Origin: a virus
Strand: one strand, 5' to 3'
Virus record (IMG/VR): IMGVR_UViG_3300020472_000106
Coordinates: 1-31,723 of that record
Length of the DNA: 31,723 bases
Shown: in pieces, positions 2,472 to 31,723 of the stretch
Layout of the letters: every line of letters starts with the position of its first letter
Position numbering within the stretch: the first letter of the stretch is position 1
Translations under genes and position numbers: made by a program
The notes under the pieces: model-generated
What the model saw: the letters and a program-made list of their open reading frames with translations, nothing else
Told to the model about the DNA's origin: nothing
Databases searched by the model: none

Positions 2472-3944
2472 ATGGCTTTTTGGGATAGATTTAGAAGAAA
2501 AAAGCGTAGCAATCAAAGAAACTTTACAGCTTCCCACACAGGTCGTTTATTTAATGATTGGAATACAATAAATAGTTCACCTGATGGCGAGTTGGAAAAC
2601 AACTTAAAGACAATGCGCGATAGAGCTAGAGATTTAGCTCGTAACAATGGCATAATTACTCGCTACTTACAGATAATGAAAGAGGGTGTAGTTGGTAATC
2701 AAGGATTTAGACTAAAAGTAAAAGGTCGAGATGCTGATGGTACATTAGATGATTTTGCTAACGATTTAATTGAATATAATTGGTATCAATGGTCAGAAAA
2801 TCCAGAAGTATCATATTGCTACACAATGCAAGACTTATATCAGTCAATAGTTGTTGGCTTGTTAAGAGATGGTGAAGTTTTAGTCCAAAAAATTAAAACT
2901 AGAGAGGGTTTAAGACTAAAGTTTATTGAACCTGATTTTTTAGATAGCAGATTAAATAAAGATATTTCTGATACTCGCCAAATACGCATGGGAGTAGAAA
3001 TAGACAGAAGAACACAATCACCATTAGGGTATTGGTTAAAAAACAATCCATATCAAGATAGTTTACCAGATCAGCAATTACAAAGGTCAATCAGAGTAAG
3101 TGCAGAAGATATGATGCACATATATCAACCAGAACGCTTTGGTCAGACTAGAGGTTATCCAAAAATAGCTTCTGTTATGACAAGTATTAAATGGTTAAAC
3201 GATTATAGACTTGCAGAGCTTGTAGCTAGTAAAGCAGGTGCAAGTAAAATGGGATTTATTACAAGTCCAAGTGGTGATGGTTATGCAGAAAGCTATGGTG
3301 GCGATGAGTATTTACCACAAATGAATTTTGAACCAGGTAGCTTTGACCAATTACCTGATGGCTATGATATTAAGTTTTTTGATCCACAACATCCGACTTC
3401 ACAGATGCCTGATTACGATAAGGCAATGCTAAGAACGATAGCAAGTGGATTAGGTGTATCTTACGCATCATTAAGTGGAGACTTAACACAAACAAGTTTC
3501 TCAAGCGCAAGAGTAGGCCTTTTAAGTGAAAGAGATAGTTTTAAGCAAATGCAATCTTTCATTATTAACCATTTTGCCAGACCGCTTTACAAAGAGTGGT
3601 TGTTACAAGCAATAACTGTTGGAACAATTAATTTACCAATGACTAAATACGATAAATTTGCCAATCCAACATTTACTTCAAGGGCATACGAAGCTGTTGA
3701 TCCTTTAAAACAAGCTCAAGCAAATGTCCTTAACATTAATCAAGGTCTTGCAACTATGCAGGATGTTTTATCGCAACAAGGTAAAGATGTTGCTGAACAC
3801 TTTAGCGAGATTGATTCAGAAAAGGCACTAAGCCAGAAATTTGATATTCAATTTGCACTAGAGCCATTTGGTAACAAACTTAATCAACAAACAGGGCAAC
3901 TTTTTGATGATGTTAATTTAAACGAGGATTCAGATGGAGAATAA
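2472..3944 (+). CDS. Portal protein, lambda gpB type
   Basis: The protein has 490 residues, close to the usual size for lambda-family portals. Recognisable segments are RDLARNNGIITRYLQIMKEG near residues 55-75, VVGLLRDGEVLVQ (about 127-139), IEPDFLDSR, LGYWLKNNPY, MMHIYQPERFGQTRGYP (about 214-230), and GLGVSYASLSGDLTQTSFSSAR (about 329-350), a strongly conserved portal signature. It forms the dodecameric DNA entry ring at the capsid vertex. GAGG precedes the ATG. The stop lies within the start region of the protease-capsid gene. Confidence 0.95.
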   Translation: MAFWDRFRRKKRSNQRNFTASHTGRLFNDWNTINSSPDGELENNLKTMRDRARDLARNNGIITRYLQIMKEGVVGNQGFRLKVKGRDADGTLDDFANDLIEYNWYQWSENPEVSYCYTMQDLYQSIVVGLLRDGEVLVQKIKTREGLRLKFIEPDFLDSRLNKDISDTRQIRMGVEIDRRTQSPLGYWLKNNPYQDSLPDQQLQRSIRVSAEDMMHIYQPERFGQTRGYPKIASVMTSIKWLNDYRLAELVASKAGASKMGFITSPSGDGYAESYGGDEYLPQMNFEPGSFDQLPDGYDIKFFDPQHPTSQMPDYDKAMLRTIASGLGVSYASLSGDLTQTSFSSARVGLLSERDSFKQMQSFIINHFARPLYKEWLLQAITVGTINLPMTKYDKFANPTFTSRAYEAVDPLKQAQANVLNINQGLATMQDVLSQQGKDVAEHFSEIDSEKALSQKFDIQFALEPFGNKLNQQTGQLFDDVNLNEDSDGE

Positions 3945-5847
3945 TATGACAAAAGAAACTCAGGAAGAAATCGTTGAAGAAAACAACGAAGAAATCAGGG
4001 AAGATATGGAGCTAGATATTCTCTTTACACCTGATGAAGAATTAAACGAAACCTTAGATGAAGTCGAGGTTAAGACAGAGGAAACAGAAACTCTTGAATC
4101 AAGAGAAGCTGTATTCCCATTAGAATTTAGACAAGATGAAACAAGTGAAAGAACAATGGAAATGTCCATTTCTTCTGAAAGTCCTGTAGCTCGTAGCTTT
4201 GGACTTGAAGTTTTATCGCATCGCGATGGTGATATTGACCTTACCAGGTTAATGAATAAAGCACCTATGTTAAAAGATCATGATGCAAGTCAACAAATTG
4301 GAGTCGTTGAAAACGCATATCTCGATACTCAGCGTGGTAAGCTGATGTCAAAAGTACGCTTTGGTAGAGGTGCTTTAGCATCGGAGATATTTAACGATGT
4401 CAAGGATGGTATCAGAACACAAGTGTCAATAGGGTATCAAATCAACCCAGATAGCATGGAAAAATCTGAAACTACAGATGAGGTTCGCATAACCGATTGG
4501 ATGCCAATGGAAGTTAGCATTGTATCTATGGGCGCAGACCAAAATGTAGGATTTGGAAGATCGCTATCTTTAAATCAACCAATAAAAACTGAAAATAAAA
4601 AGGAGGTCATTATGACTGAAGAAACAAAATCAGTAGATGTTGAAGAACAAGTAAGAGTGAAAACAGATGAAGTTCTTGCAAAAAGAGAAAAAGAAATCGC
4701 TGAAATTATCGAGCTTGGTGCTAGACATCAAAAACAAGACTTAGCTAAAGAAGCTATTAGAGATGGTAAAGACTTATCATCTTTCAGAGGTGAGTTATTA
4801 ACTCAAATCGAAAATCAACCAATCGAAAGCAATGAAATTGGTCTAACAGAAAAAGAAGCTAGAAGTTTTAGCATTGTTAGAATGGCTAAACATCAAGCAG
4901 GCATGAATGTTGATGCACAATTTGAAGTAGAAGCATCAAGAGCTTATGCTGAAAAAGTTGGTAAAGAGCCAAAAGGTTTCTATGTACCAGAAGATGTGAC
5001 TAATGATTGGGGTAAAAGAACCATGAATACTGCTAACTCAGCAGGATTCGTTTATGACGATAAGCAGTATGGAAATTTAATAGATGCTCTTACGCCATAT
5101 TCGACTGTTCTCCAAGCTAATCCTACTGTACTAGCAAATAATTCTGGAAATATTACGATTCCAAGAGTATCTGCTTTAAGTACGAGTGCATGGGTTACTG
5201 AGGGTGTTGCAGTTGGAGCTTCTGATCCTACAATCGACACAGTAACATTATCTGAAAAGACTAATGGTGCTTACACAGATTTAACAAGAACACTTCTACA
5301 AAATACAGATGGCTTTAGCGTAGAAAACATGGTTAGAAATAACCTGCTTAGAGCTATGGGTGTTACTTGGGATCAAGCATCAGTAAGTGGTACAGGTGCA
5401 GGTGGACAACCTACAGGCATTGAAAATACCGCAGGTGTAAACGCAACAGCTTTCGGTGTTGCAGGCGCACCAACTTACGCTGAATATATTGAAATGCAGA
5501 CTAAGATATTTGAAGATAATTCAACTTTAGATACTAACTCTGTTAGATATATCACAACTCCTGCTCTTTATGGTGCAGGTAAAGCATTAGCAACCAATGG
5601 CGCAGGTTCTCCTGTAGCAATTAGAGATGATTTCCTAGATGGAATACAAGTTCTAATTTCTAGCCAGGTTACAGCTAACACAGCAATACTTGGAGACTTC
5701 TCTGAGTTTATAGTAGCTACATGGGGTGGATTAGACATTCAATCCGATCCTTATGCACTATCTACATCAGGTGGCTTAAGACTAGTTGCATTATCATCAG
5801 TTGATTATGCAGTTAAGCATCCTGTTAGCTTCTGTGTATCAGCTTAG
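3934..5847 (+). CDS. Prohead protease fused to HK97-fold major capsid protein
   Basis: The protein has 637 residues. Residues 1-55 are a highly acidic leader. Residues about 58-215 are an HK97-type (U35) prohead protease: KDHD with His116 and DGIRTQVSIGYQ with Ser165 match the expected catalytic positions. From residue 227 there is a charged helical delta-like scaffold segment. From about 325 to the end is an HK97-fold major capsid protein, with YSTVLQANPTVLANNSGNIT, GTGAGGQPTGIENT and DGIQVLISSQV as typical stretches. Encoding protease, scaffold and shell in one polyprotein implies self-cleavage during assembly. An ATG at 3946 with GGAG 6 bases upstream is an equally good start. An internal start is listed separately. 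Confidence 0.93.
   Translation: MENNMTKETQEEIVEENNEEIREDMELDILFTPDEELNETLDEVEVKTEETETLESREAVFPLEFRQDETSERTMEMSISSESPVARSFGLEVLSHRDGDIDLTRLMNKAPMLKDHDASQQIGVVENAYLDTQRGKLMSKVRFGRGALASEIFNDVKDGIRTQVSIGYQINPDSMEKSETTDEVRITDWMPMEVSIVSMGADQNVGFGRSLSLNQPIKTENKKEVIMTEETKSVDVEEQVRVKTDEVLAKREKEIAEIIELGARHQKQDLAKEAIRDGKDLSSFRGELLTQIENQPIESNEIGLTEKEARSFSIVRMAKHQAGMNVDAQFEVEASRAYAEKVGKEPKGFYVPEDVTNDWGKRTMNTANSAGFVYDDKQYGNLIDALTPYSTVLQANPTVLANNSGNITIPRVSALSTSAWVTEGVAVGASDPTIDTVTLSEKTNGAYTDLTRTLLQNTDGFSVENMVRNNLLRAMGVTWDQASVSGTGAGGQPTGIENTAGVNATAFGVAGAPTYAEYIEMQTKIFEDNSTLDTNSVRYITTPALYGAGKALATNGAGSPVAIRDDFLDGIQVLISSQVTANTAILGDFSEFIVATWGGLDIQSDPYALSTSGGLRLVALSSVDYAVKHPVSFCVSA
4600..4607 (+). promoter_or_regulatory. 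Strong internal Shine-Dalgarno site
   Basis: AAGGAGGT lies inside the protease-capsid reading frame and is a near-perfect complement of the 16S rRNA 3' end. It lies a few bases before the in-frame ATG at 4612, at the exact border between the protease and capsid modules. Confidence 0.8.
4612..5847 (+). CDS. Major capsid protein from an internal in-frame start
   Basis: An ATG at 4612 is in frame (codon 227 of the fusion) and is preceded by AAGGAGGT at 4600-4607, the strongest Shine-Dalgarno sequence noticed in this window, with about 5 bases of spacing. Translation here would give a 411-residue protein with the delta domain and full capsid domain but no protease. That is the length expected for a stand-alone HK97-type capsid precursor. 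This resembles lambda, where the C gene contains the Nu3 scaffold start, but here the nested product would be the shell itself. Made independently, it would set a high capsid to protease ratio. Confidence 0.75.
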   Translation: MTEETKSVDVEEQVRVKTDEVLAKREKEIAEIIELGARHQKQDLAKEAIRDGKDLSSFRGELLTQIENQPIESNEIGLTEKEARSFSIVRMAKHQAGMNVDAQFEVEASRAYAEKVGKEPKGFYVPEDVTNDWGKRTMNTANSAGFVYDDKQYGNLIDALTPYSTVLQANPTVLANNSGNITIPRVSALSTSAWVTEGVAVGASDPTIDTVTLSEKTNGAYTDLTRTLLQNTDGFSVENMVRNNLLRAMGVTWDQASVSGTGAGGQPTGIENTAGVNATAFGVAGAPTYAEYIEMQTKIFEDNSTLDTNSVRYITTPALYGAGKALATNGAGSPVAIRDDFLDGIQVLISSQVTANTAILGDFSEFIVATWGGLDIQSDPYALSTSGGLRLVALSSVDYAVKHPVSFCVSA

Positions 5848-6116: not shown

Positions 6117-6306
6117 ACTTATCAAATCTATTACTGTAAATGGCGGTAAAGCAAAAAAAGGCGATATATTGGATGAAAGTCCAAAAGTTGTCCAAAAACT
6201 CATTTTAAGAGGTTACGCTACAGAAGAATTAGCTGATGAACCAATATCTTATGCACCAGATCAACCTTACTCGGATGCAGAAGATGTCGATAAATCTAGC
6301 AAATAA
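6106..6306 (+). CDS. Small head protein, second copy
   Basis: The protein has 66 residues: MKVKLIKSITVNGGKAKKGD, then VVQKLILRGYATEEL. It shares pattern and length with the first 40 residues of the preceding gene, which suggests a tandem duplication followed by divergence; the tails differ (Lys/Ser-rich in one, acidic here). It overlaps the preceding gene by 11 bp and the next by 23 bp. The function is unknown beyond position in the head-tail joining region. Confidence 0.7.
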   Translation: MKVKLIKSITVNGGKAKKGDILDESPKVVQKLILRGYATEELADEPISYAPDQPYSDAEDVDKSSK

Positions 6307-6619
6307 CGCATTTTTTAGCACAGAAGATTTTGCTGTAATATGCAGGTGGACTGTTGCTTCTACAAGCGATACTTACCAAGTCAAAGCTGTATTTGATAAC
6401 CAATTCTTTGAAGCATTTGACGAATTTGGTAGTCCTGTAAGCACAAGTTCACCTGTTATTTACATGAAAACCGATGATTTACCAACAGGGCATGATGAAA
6501 ACGATACTCTAATTGTGCCTATTACAAGCAATGATGTTACTTCCGATACTACCTACAAAGTTAAGGTTATTGAAAGTGATGGTTTAGGAGTATCAACAAT
6601 TAGACTGCAAAAACAATGA
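6284..6619 (+). CDS. Head-tail joining protein (lambda FII-like position)
   Basis: Starting at ATG 6284 gives 111 residues (MSINLANNAFF...). An upstream in-frame ATG at 6236 lies deep inside the previous gene and is less likely. The protein has an N-terminal helix and strands such as YQVKAVFDNQFFEAFDEFG and a VIESDGLGVSTIRLQKQ-like ending. That resembles the small FII-type connectors that attach tails to heads. The assignment rests on size, pattern and location between capsid and tail terminator genes. The stop overlaps the next start (ATGA). Confidence 0.65.
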   Translation: MSINLANNAFFSTEDFAVICRWTVASTSDTYQVKAVFDNQFFEAFDEFGSPVSTSSPVIYMKTDDLPTGHDENDTLIVPITSNDVTSDTTYKVKVIESDGLGVSTIRLQKQ

Positions 6620-27774: not shown

Positions 27775-28353
27775 ATGATAAAACCAGATTTAACTGTAAC
27801 AAGTAACCAACTAAGTGAAATACTTGAGCTATCTGTGAGAAGAATACAACAACTAGCTAAGTCAGGCACATTGCCGAAACAAGAAAAGAGAAACAGGTAT
27901 AAATTAGTTGAATCTATACAAGGTTACATTAAATACCTTAGAGGTCAGGTTGTACATGGAGACGCACCTCAAGATTTGAAAGAAGCAAAGCTAAGACAAG
28001 AAAAAGCAAGAGCTGAAATATTAGAATTAGAAGCATTGCAAAAGAATGGCGAGTTACAACACCAAGACGATATTGAGAAAGTTTGGAATAGCATTGCAGT
28101 CTTAATTAAGACAAAGCTGTTAGCTTTAAGCTCAAGAGTAAGTGCTGATGTTTATGGCGCAACAAGTCTTGTCCAGGTTAGATCAAGAATAGACGAAGAA
28201 ATAGATTTGATACTAAGCGAATTAGTAAATACGCAAGTGGAGATAGATGTTACAAGTACCAACAGAGTCGCTACAGATAACAGCACAGAAAACATTAAAG
28301 AATTTGAAACCACCGCCAAAGATGACAGTCAGCGAGTGGGCAAATCAAAATAG
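27775..28353 (+). CDS. terS: Terminase small subunit
   Basis: The protein has 192 residues. The N-terminal helix-turn-helix (TSNQLSEILELSVRRIQQLA, KSGTLPKQEKRNRYKLVESI) is of the Nu1/MerR-like type. A charged helix follows (LKEAKLRQEKARAEILELEA), then a helical oligomerisation region (VWNSIAVLIKTKLLALSSRV). It recognises the packaging site and loads the large subunit. It overlaps the large subunit gene by 107 bp, an unusually long overlap caused by the upstream ATG of terL. Confidence 0.85.
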   Translation: MIKPDLTVTSNQLSEILELSVRRIQQLAKSGTLPKQEKRNRYKLVESIQGYIKYLRGQVVHGDAPQDLKEAKLRQEKARAEILELEALQKNGELQHQDDIEKVWNSIAVLIKTKLLALSSRVSADVYGATSLVQVRSRIDEEIDLILSELVNTQVEIDVTSTNRVATDNSTENIKEFETTAKDDSQRVGKSK

Positions 28354-30079
28354 GGTTCTATCATCGGAAACAAGTGCATCACCTGGTAAGTGGGTAACTT
28401 ATTCTTTTCAAAAAGAAATGATGGATGCGTTCTCTGATCCTTTGGTAGAACAAGTTGTTATTATGAGTGGTAGTCAGTTAGGTAAAACTGAAATACTGCT
28501 CAATGTATTAGGTTATCATATTGACCTTGATCCAAGTCCAATAATGATAATTCAACCAACATTATCAATGGCAGGCACATTTTCTAAAAACCGGATAACT
28601 CCGATGATAAGAGATAGTGTAAAGCTGAATAGTAAGGTGCGTGATCCTCGTTCAAGGGATAGCGGTAACACAGTTTACAGCAAGTCTTTTGATGGAGGTA
28701 GTTTAGACCTAATTGGTTCAAACTCAGCTTCTAGTGCAAGCTCAAGACCTGTGAGAATACTTCTATGCGATGAGGTCGATAGGTATTCTACAGCGACAAC
28801 TGAGGGTGATATAATTGGTCTTGGTAAAAGACGAACCTCAAACTTTTTCAATCGAAAGATTGGAATGGTCTCAACACCAACGATTAAAGGTAATTCTCGT
28901 ATTCAACAGTTCTACGAGCAAGGCGATCAAAGACGCTTTTATGTAAGGTGTCCAGACTGTAATGATGAATTGTTATTGGAGTGGAAAGATGTACATTTTC
29001 AAAAAGATAATGGAATACTCAAAGACGCTCACATTGTTTGTAATGGATGTGGCTCGGCTTGGGATGACAGTAAAAGGATTAACGCGATTAGCAATGGGTA
29101 TTGGAAAGCTCATGCTGAGTTTACTCAAACGCGTAGTTTCTGGATTAGTGGCTTGTACTCGATGTGGAATAGCACTTATGAGCAAGCTGTTTACTTTCAT
29201 CAAGCAAAAGATTTACCAGAAACGCTAAGAGTATTTGTTAATACTGTTCTTGCTGAAACATGGGATGAGGATGCAGGTGAATCAGTTGATAGTCATAAGC
29301 TAAAAGATAGAGCCGAAGATTTAGGCGATGATTTACCAAGAGATGTAGTGATCCTGGTAGCAGGAATAGATACGCAAGATGATAGGTTAGAAATAACTGT
29401 TGCAGGTTTTACAAGAGACGAGTCAGTTTATATTATTGCACATGATGTGCTTTATGGTGATCCATCAGGTCATCAATTATGGCAAGATTTAGACGAATAT
29501 TTAGAACGCAAATATCAACATCCTTTAGGCATTGAGCTAACTGTTAGAGGAAGTTGCATTGATTCAGGTGGTCATCATACATCGCAGGTTTATTCTTATG
29601 TAAGAAAAAACCAACATAAAAGAGTTTTTGCTATTAAAGGTGTTGGTGGCGATGGTCGCGCATTAGTCGGTAGGCCAAGTAAAAACAATATCGGTAAAGT
29701 TAGTCTCTTTCCAATAGGTTCAGATACAGTCAAAAGTCTAATCTATGGAAGATTAAAGATAGAAGATGGATCAGGTATGATTCATTTTAATTCTACACTT
29801 GATGATGAATACTTCGACCAACTAACATCAGAAAGACGCGTAGAAAGAATAAGTAAAGGTGTAAAACGCACCGAATGGAAAAAGATAAGAGCCAGAAATG
29901 AAGCATGGGATTGCTTACAGTATTTGTTTGGTGCTTATCATATCTTGAATGTTAATTTGAGAATACTCCATGAAAAAATGAATAGAAAAAAAGAACCTCA
30001 AGCTAAAGAGCAAGGTGAAGAAAGAAATCCTTTAGTGCGCAAGCGCAGAAACACAAGAAAAAATTGGATGGACATATAA
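28247..30079 (+). CDS. terL: Terminase large subunit, GpA family
   Basis: The protein has 610 residues. An N-terminal LKPPPKMTVSEWANQNRVLS, the Walker A-like SGSQLGKTE (Lys80), and Walker B ILLCDE (Asp175-Glu176) mark the packaging ATPase. A CxxC pair (CPDC ... CNGC, about 235-270) forms a zinc-binding insert. The nuclease domain starts at VAGIDTQDDRLEI (about 370) and ends near WKKIRARNEAWDCLQYLFGA. Lambda-type GpA proteins cut cos sites, so cohesive ends are likely but not proven. The ATG at 28247 has GGAG 6 bases upstream. Confidence 0.95.
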   Translation: MLQVPTESLQITAQKTLKNLKPPPKMTVSEWANQNRVLSSETSASPGKWVTYSFQKEMMDAFSDPLVEQVVIMSGSQLGKTEILLNVLGYHIDLDPSPIMIIQPTLSMAGTFSKNRITPMIRDSVKLNSKVRDPRSRDSGNTVYSKSFDGGSLDLIGSNSASSASSRPVRILLCDEVDRYSTATTEGDIIGLGKRRTSNFFNRKIGMVSTPTIKGNSRIQQFYEQGDQRRFYVRCPDCNDELLLEWKDVHFQKDNGILKDAHIVCNGCGSAWDDSKRINAISNGYWKAHAEFTQTRSFWISGLYSMWNSTYEQAVYFHQAKDLPETLRVFVNTVLAETWDEDAGESVDSHKLKDRAEDLGDDLPRDVVILVAGIDTQDDRLEITVAGFTRDESVYIIAHDVLYGDPSGHQLWQDLDEYLERKYQHPLGIELTVRGSCIDSGGHHTSQVYSYVRKNQHKRVFAIKGVGGDGRALVGRPSKNNIGKVSLFPIGSDTVKSLIYGRLKIEDGSGMIHFNSTLDDEYFDQLTSERRVERISKGVKRTEWKKIRARNEAWDCLQYLFGAYHILNVNLRILHEKMNRKKEPQAKEQGEERNPLVRKRRNTRKNWMDI

Positions 30080-30080
30080 T

Positions 30081-31723
30081 ATGGCAATAGTCGTAAAAGA
30101 TAGAGTCAAAGTAAGTACAGCTACTACAGGCACAGGAACGCTAACTTTAGGTTCAGCAGAAACAGACTTCCAGGCATTTTCCGTTATTGGTGATGGCAAC
30201 CAAACTTATTACGCAATTAAATCCGATGCAGGATTCGAGGTTGGCATTGGCACTTATACGCATAGTGGAACGACACTAAGCAGAGATACTATACTTGAAA
30301 GTTCTAACTCAGGATCAGCAGTATCATTAACAGGCACATCAACAGTCTTTACGACTTACCCTGCTGAACGAGCTAGCTTTAGCGATCAAGGTTTATCTAA
30401 AACCTTTACCGCAGATGGAGCAATAACAGCAGGCAAGCCAACAATATTAACAAGTGCAGGCAAAGCTCAACAATTTACCTTAACAGGAAATAGTGTAACG
30501 CAAGGACTTGGAACAGATGTTCAACCAAATGGTAGTGATTATTTAAATTATTCAAGTATTACAAAAGTATCAGATACTCAATTCGTTGCTTATTTTACTG
30601 ATAGCGGTAATAGCAATAGACCAACTGCAATAGTTGGAACGATAGGAGCTAACAAAACCATTACTTATGGCTCTAAACAAACAATAACAAATGATACAAA
30701 TGTTACAAAATGTGAAGTAATATGGGATAGCACTGCTTCAAAATTACAATATTACAATTATGTTTCTACAGACGCATATTTATATGGAGCAACTTCAGAT
30801 GTTAATTTAGCCACTAATGCTATTAGTGGGATTGGCACATGGGGTGTTGTAATGTCAAACCAAATATATGACATGATTGGTTTATATGATCCTGATAATA
30901 ACCAAGTTGTTTTAACTGCTAATAGACCAAGTGATAATTTTGAAATTATGTCTATGAGTGCTTCAACTTCTCCACCTTCAATTAGTTTTAGTTCAACAGT
31001 TTCAAGCTATACACATGGTGGCGGAGAACGAGCTATTGGATATGATACTAATGTAAATGTTTTTGTTGCCACTGGTAATGATGAAGATAAATTTGTAGCT
31101 TTCACTAATAGTGGATCAGCATTTACTGTAAGTTCAGTTCAAGATTTAGGTCTTGGCAGTCAAGATTATATGGGTTTTAGTTTTGATCCCGATGCAAATA
31201 AATTTGTTTATCATTATCATCCATCAGGTAACACAACACAAAAAATTGTAGCCTTAACTGTTGATAGTTCAAGAAACATTACCATTGGAACACCTGTTGA
31301 CTTAGGAACAGCAGATGGTGGTGGTTCAGCTACATCAAGCTATGATCCAATAGCAAAAAAACATATAATTTTTGTTGGAGATGGAGCAGATATAGCTAAT
31401 TATTATCCTGTAACAATGGATAGTAGTGGCGCAATGACTGTTGGAACATCATCTACATTTGCTAACACAAATTATTCAGTTCAAAGAATAGTTAGCACAC
31501 CATGTTTTACAGCTATGGATGAAAACCCTATTGTTATCTTTTATGGAGATAACAATACAAGTCAAGGAGAGTCATCTGTATTTACCTTTGAACAAACTGC
31601 TGTTTCTAACCTTGATAACAACTATCTCGGAGTAGCTTCAACAACTGCAAGTGATACAGAAGAAGTTAAAATCAACTTACCAGAGGGAAGCATTAATAAC
31701 TCACAGAGTGGATTAACAATAGG
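30081..31723 (+). CDS. Tail/fibre-associated structural protein, cut by the window edge
   Basis: At least 547 residues are read with no stop before the edge. The N-terminus (VKDRVKVSTATTGTGTLTLG, DGNQTYYAIKSDAGFEVGIG, SGTTLSRDTILESSNSGSAV, then FTTYPAERAS) is a recurrent opening of phage tail fibre and structural proteins. The middle is a long beta region with repeated seven-bladed-propeller-like units (for example YDPDNNQVVLTANRPSDNFE, YDTNVNVFVATGNDEDKFVA, FDPDANKFVYHYHPSGN, YDPIAKKHIIFVGDGADIAN). The D.....VV.... spacing of about 55 residues suggests a beta-propeller. The function is probably host recognition or adsorption (inferred). Confidence 0.85.
   Translation, partial: MAIVVKDRVKVSTATTGTGTLTLGSAETDFQAFSVIGDGNQTYYAIKSDAGFEVGIGTYTHSGTTLSRDTILESSNSGSAVSLTGTSTVFTTYPAERASFSDQGLSKTFTADGAITAGKPTILTSAGKAQQFTLTGNSVTQGLGTDVQPNGSDYLNYSSITKVSDTQFVAYFTDSGNSNRPTAIVGTIGANKTITYGSKQTITNDTNVTKCEVIWDSTASKLQYYNYVSTDAYLYGATSDVNLATNAISGIGTWGVVMSNQIYDMIGLYDPDNNQVVLTANRPSDNFEIMSMSASTSPPSISFSSTVSSYTHGGGERAIGYDTNVNVFVATGNDEDKFVAFTNSGSAFTVSSVQDLGLGSQDYMGFSFDPDANKFVYHYHPSGNTTQKIVALTVDSSRNITIGTPVDLGTADGGGSATSSYDPIAKKHIIFVGDGADIANYYPVTMDSSGAMTVGTSSTFANTNYSVQRIVSTPCFTAMDENPIVIFYGDNNTSQGESSVFTFEQTAVSNLDNNYLGVASTTASDTEEVKINLPEGSINNSQSGLTI

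Follow-up and report, generated by a model that had tools for sequence, protein, structure and literature searches.

The window analysed here is the whole stretch of 31,723 nucleotides of a viral record (IMG/VR record IMGVR_UViG_3300020472_000106), and the gene discussed in this work is placed in an ordinary head module, with genes for a terminase, a portal and a head-tail attachment protein (Table 1). The full-length gene has two candidate starts, 3934 and 3946, and its 5' end overlaps the end of the portal gene. The frame runs through all 637 codons without interruption in the ORF translation. It had been proposed in the initial annotation that protease and HK97-type capsid share one frame of 637 residues, and on this point ORF analysis, Pfam, AlphaFold2 and Foldseek all agree. 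The profile of PHROG 617 is matched over nearly its full length (positions 19-621 of 626, E 5.3e-113); a match to PHROG 4523 is confined to residues 49-335 of the protein.

The domain borders in Table 1 come largely from an AlphaFold2 model that was built from an alignment of 34 sequences and has a mean pLDDT of 74. When the capsid part of the model is compared with known structures by Foldseek, the best match is the capsid of phage R4C (8gta_A, E 9.8e-20), followed by capsids of GTA and HK97. At the end of the window there is a frame of 547 codons (30081-31721) that reaches the window end without a stop codon, thus the record is either incomplete or circularly permuted.

Table 1. Features of the fused head gene and of its neighbours in the window
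Feature	Position	Strand	Basis or remark
Lambda-type portal	2472-3944		directly before the fused gene
Fused prohead protease-scaffold-major capsid gene, 637 aa	3934..5847	+	Pfam S78 and Phage_capsid; PHROG 617 over residues 66-636
Protease domain, S78 type, residues 71-210	4144..4563	+	Pfam PF04586 (Peptidase_S78) at 108-203; AlphaFold2 block
Disordered linker, residues 211-239, contains Met227	4564..4650	+	AlphaFold2 pLDDT < 50
Internal Shine-Dalgarno AAGGAGGT	4600..4607	+	strongest among 738 plus-strand ATG sites
Predicted nested precursor of scaffold and capsid (411 aa), read from ATG 4612 to the same stop as the fusion	4612..5847	+	site conservation
Helical scaffold/delta region, residues 236-357	4639..5004	+	AlphaFold2 helices 236-264, 268-276, 281-293, 306-311, 314-321, 329-342, 353-357
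Disordered stretch, residues 362-380, putative maturation cleavage site at ~370	5017..5073	+	pLDDT < 50; alignment of R4C chain 8gta
HK97-fold major capsid domain, residues 381-637	5074..5844	+	Pfam PF05065 (Phage_capsid) at 381-635; Foldseek
Head-tail attachment protein	6236-6619		after the fused gene
GpA-type terminase	28247-30079		head module

The probable internal start site and its conservation

The AAGGAGGT element is followed by a spacer of four nucleotides, CATT, and then by the in-frame ATG at 4612-4614, which encodes Met227; in the AlphaFold2 model this residue falls in the flexible stretch that joins the protease to the scaffold. We expressed the strength of a site as its computed pairing energy with the anti-Shine-Dalgarno sequence. 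By this measure the site reaches -12.2 kcal/mol, and either candidate start of the fusion pairs more weakly (-5.9 kcal/mol at 3934 and -6.4 kcal/mol at 3946). A strong Shine-Dalgarno with an in-frame ATG at the module border is exactly what the initial annotation had pointed out, and indeed its pairing is the best among the plus-strand ATGs of the window. A point against the start is that in the predicted RNA fold a small hairpin at the ATG pairs part of the internal site, although the complete fold is only weakly better than that of shuffled sequences (z -1.4).

The window by itself, nevertheless, leaves chance possible: when the codons for ENKKEVI are recoded synonymously, an equally good site arises in 5.6% of the trials. 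Hence, the claim of an internal start rests on comparative evidence. We gathered 193 loci by protein search among viral contigs, bacterial genomes and phage records, of which 188 cover both modules, and we defined the border as the interval between the VG-GR motif at the end of the protease and the start of the scaffold. An in-frame ATG is present at the border in all 188 fused homologues, down to 22% identity. Since codon frequency alone would give such an ATG in 71% of clusters, the ATG is weak evidence when taken on its own; the combination of ATG and site is strong evidence. A Shine-Dalgarno of -5 kcal/mol or better precedes 79.8% of the 188 border ATGs, compared to 8.8% of 2,691 other in-frame ATGs, the former figure being slightly inflated as the best border ATG of each sequence was scored (1.4 were available on average). 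After clustering at 65% identity (n = 58), the fraction of good sites is 0.81 at the border and 0.13 elsewhere (Wilcoxon p 3e-10), a sixfold difference for which the choice of the best among 1.4 candidates cannot account. Chance as the origin of the site is therefore ruled out by the family comparison.

It could be argued that what is conserved around this methionine is protein sequence. This is ruled out, given that the preceding residues do not align: the pentapeptide before the border Met is a different one in each of the 58 clusters, and across them the Shine-Dalgarno core is found in each of the three codon frames. Among relatives at 57-77% identity the residues vary (KEVI, KEVN, TEVK, KGGN, KDDI), while the purine-rich site and the ATG are kept. 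Variable residues together with a core found in three frames indicate selection on nucleotides, as expected of a ribosome-binding site. In 49 of the 58 clusters, further, the native site is better than the mean of its synonymous recodings (p 8e-9). In 66% of clusters the border Met is followed by S, T, A, P or G, as opposed to 33% elsewhere, an enrichment as at genuine protein N-termini.

Whether the internal site is kept in close relatives had been suggested as a check of the idea; it is kept across the family, including phages at 22-43% identity. This conservation has exceptions. In about 20% of relatives, for example S-LBS1, S-CBS1 and several Acinetobacter prophages, the Shine-Dalgarno at the border ATG is weak or absent, and in S-CBS1, Mano and Persinger the annotated upstream start outscores the internal one. 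A scarce fusion is thus not guaranteed everywhere.

Several relatives have additional features that deserve mention. In L005 (3008-4000), L006 (2729-3514), L014 (CRP-811), L016 and L022 (S-CBS1) the fused ORF extends ~130-330 codons further upstream, and these extensions carry a conserved 'PTEGMxEEARRGLxWRxEFGRGGT' segment and a 'GKHDTDLLPKGHPMSS' segment; that of L005 also has a plastocyanin-like stretch with YYYCVNHPGMGN at its end. Such modules are absent from the window gene and occur in both close and distant relatives. The annotation of Roseobacter phage CRP-823 (L027, 357-1073 and 1033-3285) divides this fused region between two 'major capsid proteins' that overlap; there may be a frameshift or a sequencing error in the N-terminal extension. 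Haematospirillum sp. H1815 (L170, 2501-5348) has, after the fused gene, another copy of scaffold and capsid that lacks the protease and matches query residues 295-636 at 33% identity; the capsid part has apparently been duplicated in tandem. In L143 a short match to the capsid C-terminus (1777-1962, residues 574-635) lies immediately 5' of the fused gene.

Two predicted products and the competing readings

In our opinion, one mRNA very probably gives two co-terminal products, a protease-scaffold-capsid fusion and a scaffold-capsid precursor that is started internally. Ribosomes initiating at 3934 or 3946 would make the 637-residue protein, and those initiating at the strong ATG 4612 would make a protein of 411 residues, the equivalent of HK97 gp5. 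The short form would then be the bulk precursor of the shell and the long form a minority, which would join the shell by its own capsid domain and so bring a limited number of proteases into the procapsid. There the protease would cut itself free and strip the scaffold, and both forms would end as an identical mature capsid protein of ~267 residues. From the sequence we infer the use of the internal start, the ratio of the products, their co-assembly and the self-excision of the protease. The words 'scarce' for the fusion and 'abundant' for the short form, likewise, are what we infer from the strength of the ribosome sites. As the two forms should mature alike, proteomics of finished particles cannot discriminate between them.

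The nested product was initially described as the capsid protein. An internal start at the border fits this description, the identity of the product does not. The capsid chain of R4C (8gta) starts at residue 362 of a 629-residue product, with the reservation that residues left unmodelled may be missing from a deposited chain; this start aligns to about residue 370 of the window protein. The internal Met of R4C is residue 189, which is 173 residues before the chain start. Because the chain begins well past the internal Met, the nested product would consist of scaffold (delta) and capsid, and thus be a precursor rather than the mature subunit.

It is conceivable that only the full-length fusion is made, that the capsid is freed by self-cleavage and that the internal site is a relic of separate genes. 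Relatives in which the genes are still split lend some plausibility to a relic, since their capsid gene starts at the same point, which is thus a plausible ancestral capsid start. In Faecalibacterium phage FP_Epona and Campylobacter prophage CJIE4-3 the capsid gene begins ~14-17 bases past the end of the protease gene, with Shine-Dalgarno energies of -11.5 and -8.5 kcal/mol, respectively. A relic, however, should decay, yet this one persists at 22-43% identity and in all three frames while the residues around it are replaced. There is also the question of space. The R4C shell has 415 capsid copies (PMC10276861), and if each subunit were fused, a T=7 shell would have to hold ~415 proteases, which would probably crowd its interior. 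This is an argument, though no proof, that the long forms are in the minority. We therefore regard a fusion-only gene as improbable.

The idea that the Shine-Dalgarno-like run merely pauses ribosomes at the domain border, so that the protease folds first, would suit a site located precisely in the disordered linker between the domains. It leaves unexplained the in-frame ATG at the border, the start-like spacing and the second residue typical of N-termini, and we consider it very unlikely. To an internal promoter that makes a separate transcript for the nested product, in the manner of UL26.5, with the ratio set by transcription, we give hardly any credence: late phage structural genes normally form one operon, nothing specific speaks for it apart from a sigma-70-like match (9/12, at 4128-4157), and promoter-like matches in the region are rarer than in shuffles (3 versus 6.9).

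Returning to two products from one mRNA, the simplest history for such a gene would be the loss of the stop codon between the protease and capsid genes with retention of the downstream start. Fused relatives that match the protease part only also have a border ATG with a site, namely Shewanella phage 1/44 (-5.7 kcal/mol), Bordetella PY223 (-7.8), Paenibacillus Pd_22F (-8.8) and DCP80 (-6.2). No stop codon occurs within the fused frame of any of the 188 fused homologues, despite a poorly conserved linker, which suggests that the fusion itself is probably useful, with the caveat that loci were ranked by match score and that this favours fused genes. Split genes and a fused gene that has kept the start form a natural series for testing the value of a protease-substrate fusion.

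A nested start would explain how a normal shell is built from a fused gene without one protease per subunit. On this reading, what is annotated as the 'major capsid protein' of fused-gene phages would in fact be two proteins, and annotation, cloning and structural work on R4C, RcCronus, ep3, S-CBS1 and others should be based on the internal start.

Comparison with known systems

The protease-scaffold-capsid layout of the window gene is the same as in the fused head proteins of PHROG 617 and PHROG 4523, to which Enterobacter phage Arya, vB_EcoM-ep3, PPpW-3, VP882, phiHAP-1, S-CBS1, RcCronus and R4C belong, and the internal start is also present in the phages of these groups that we sampled. None of the phage records examined annotates a nested start; they list either the long product alone or a split pair. 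Nor did we find, in the annotations or in the literature searched, which consisted mostly of papers outside subscription, a report of an S78-family gene with a nested start for the capsid. Already known are fused protease-capsid genes, from PHROG annotations and Gifsy-2, and nested in-frame starts in head protease genes, from lambda C/Nu3.

In Salmonella phage Gifsy-2 a single gene reportedly encodes a protease, a central scaffold-like region and the capsid protein, and this protease is said to be ClpP-like. The protease of the window, by comparison, is of S78 type by Pfam: Peptidase_S78 is the sole protease family found, and there is no Clp protease match in the window protein at E 0.01. The Gifsy-2 gene is referred to as a 'tripartite capsid gene' (Effantin et al. 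2010, Virology 402:355, as cited in PMC8538268).

Lambda C/Nu3 resembles the window gene in that an in-frame, co-terminal start is annotated as nested in a protease gene. It differs in that the nested product is scaffold only, the capsid protein E has a gene of its own and the protease is S49. Lambda C served as a positive control for our scan, which detects a strong site within this gene, CAGGAGGGCGAATG, at record position 5342 (-9.7). The ATG at this position (L217:943; NC_001416 position 5342; CAGGAGGGCGAATGACCAAAGAG) is the strongest internal one in gene C and lies 131 codons before the stop. The annotated nu3 start is at 5132, not 5342, and the site at 5132 is weak and badly spaced.

With HK97 gp5 the predicted nested product shares a scaffold that is fused to the N-terminus of the capsid protein. 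In HK97 this scaffold is removed at maturation, and by homology to the R4C chain the same may hold for the window protein. The HK97 scaffold is helical and coiled-coil (PMC10275583), and an N-terminal helical scaffold combined with the HK97 fold is also what the AlphaFold2 model and the Foldseek match to HK97 heads suggest for the window protein. In HK97, however, protease gp4 and capsid gp5 are encoded by separate genes.

The window gene also bears a likeness, for which we claim no homology, to retroviral Gag/Gag-Pol and herpesvirus UL26/UL26.5. In those systems a scarce long product carries the protease and has its assembly domain in common with an abundant short product, and it is frameshifting or nested transcripts that determine the ratio; in the window an internal bacterial start would take this role. 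On balance, we lean towards the view that the fused genes represent a family-wide, so far unannotated Gag/Gag-Pol-like arrangement of tailed phages, in which the internal start would set the ratio of precursor to protease-capsid fusion and the capsid domain would replace a signal for encapsidation of the protease.
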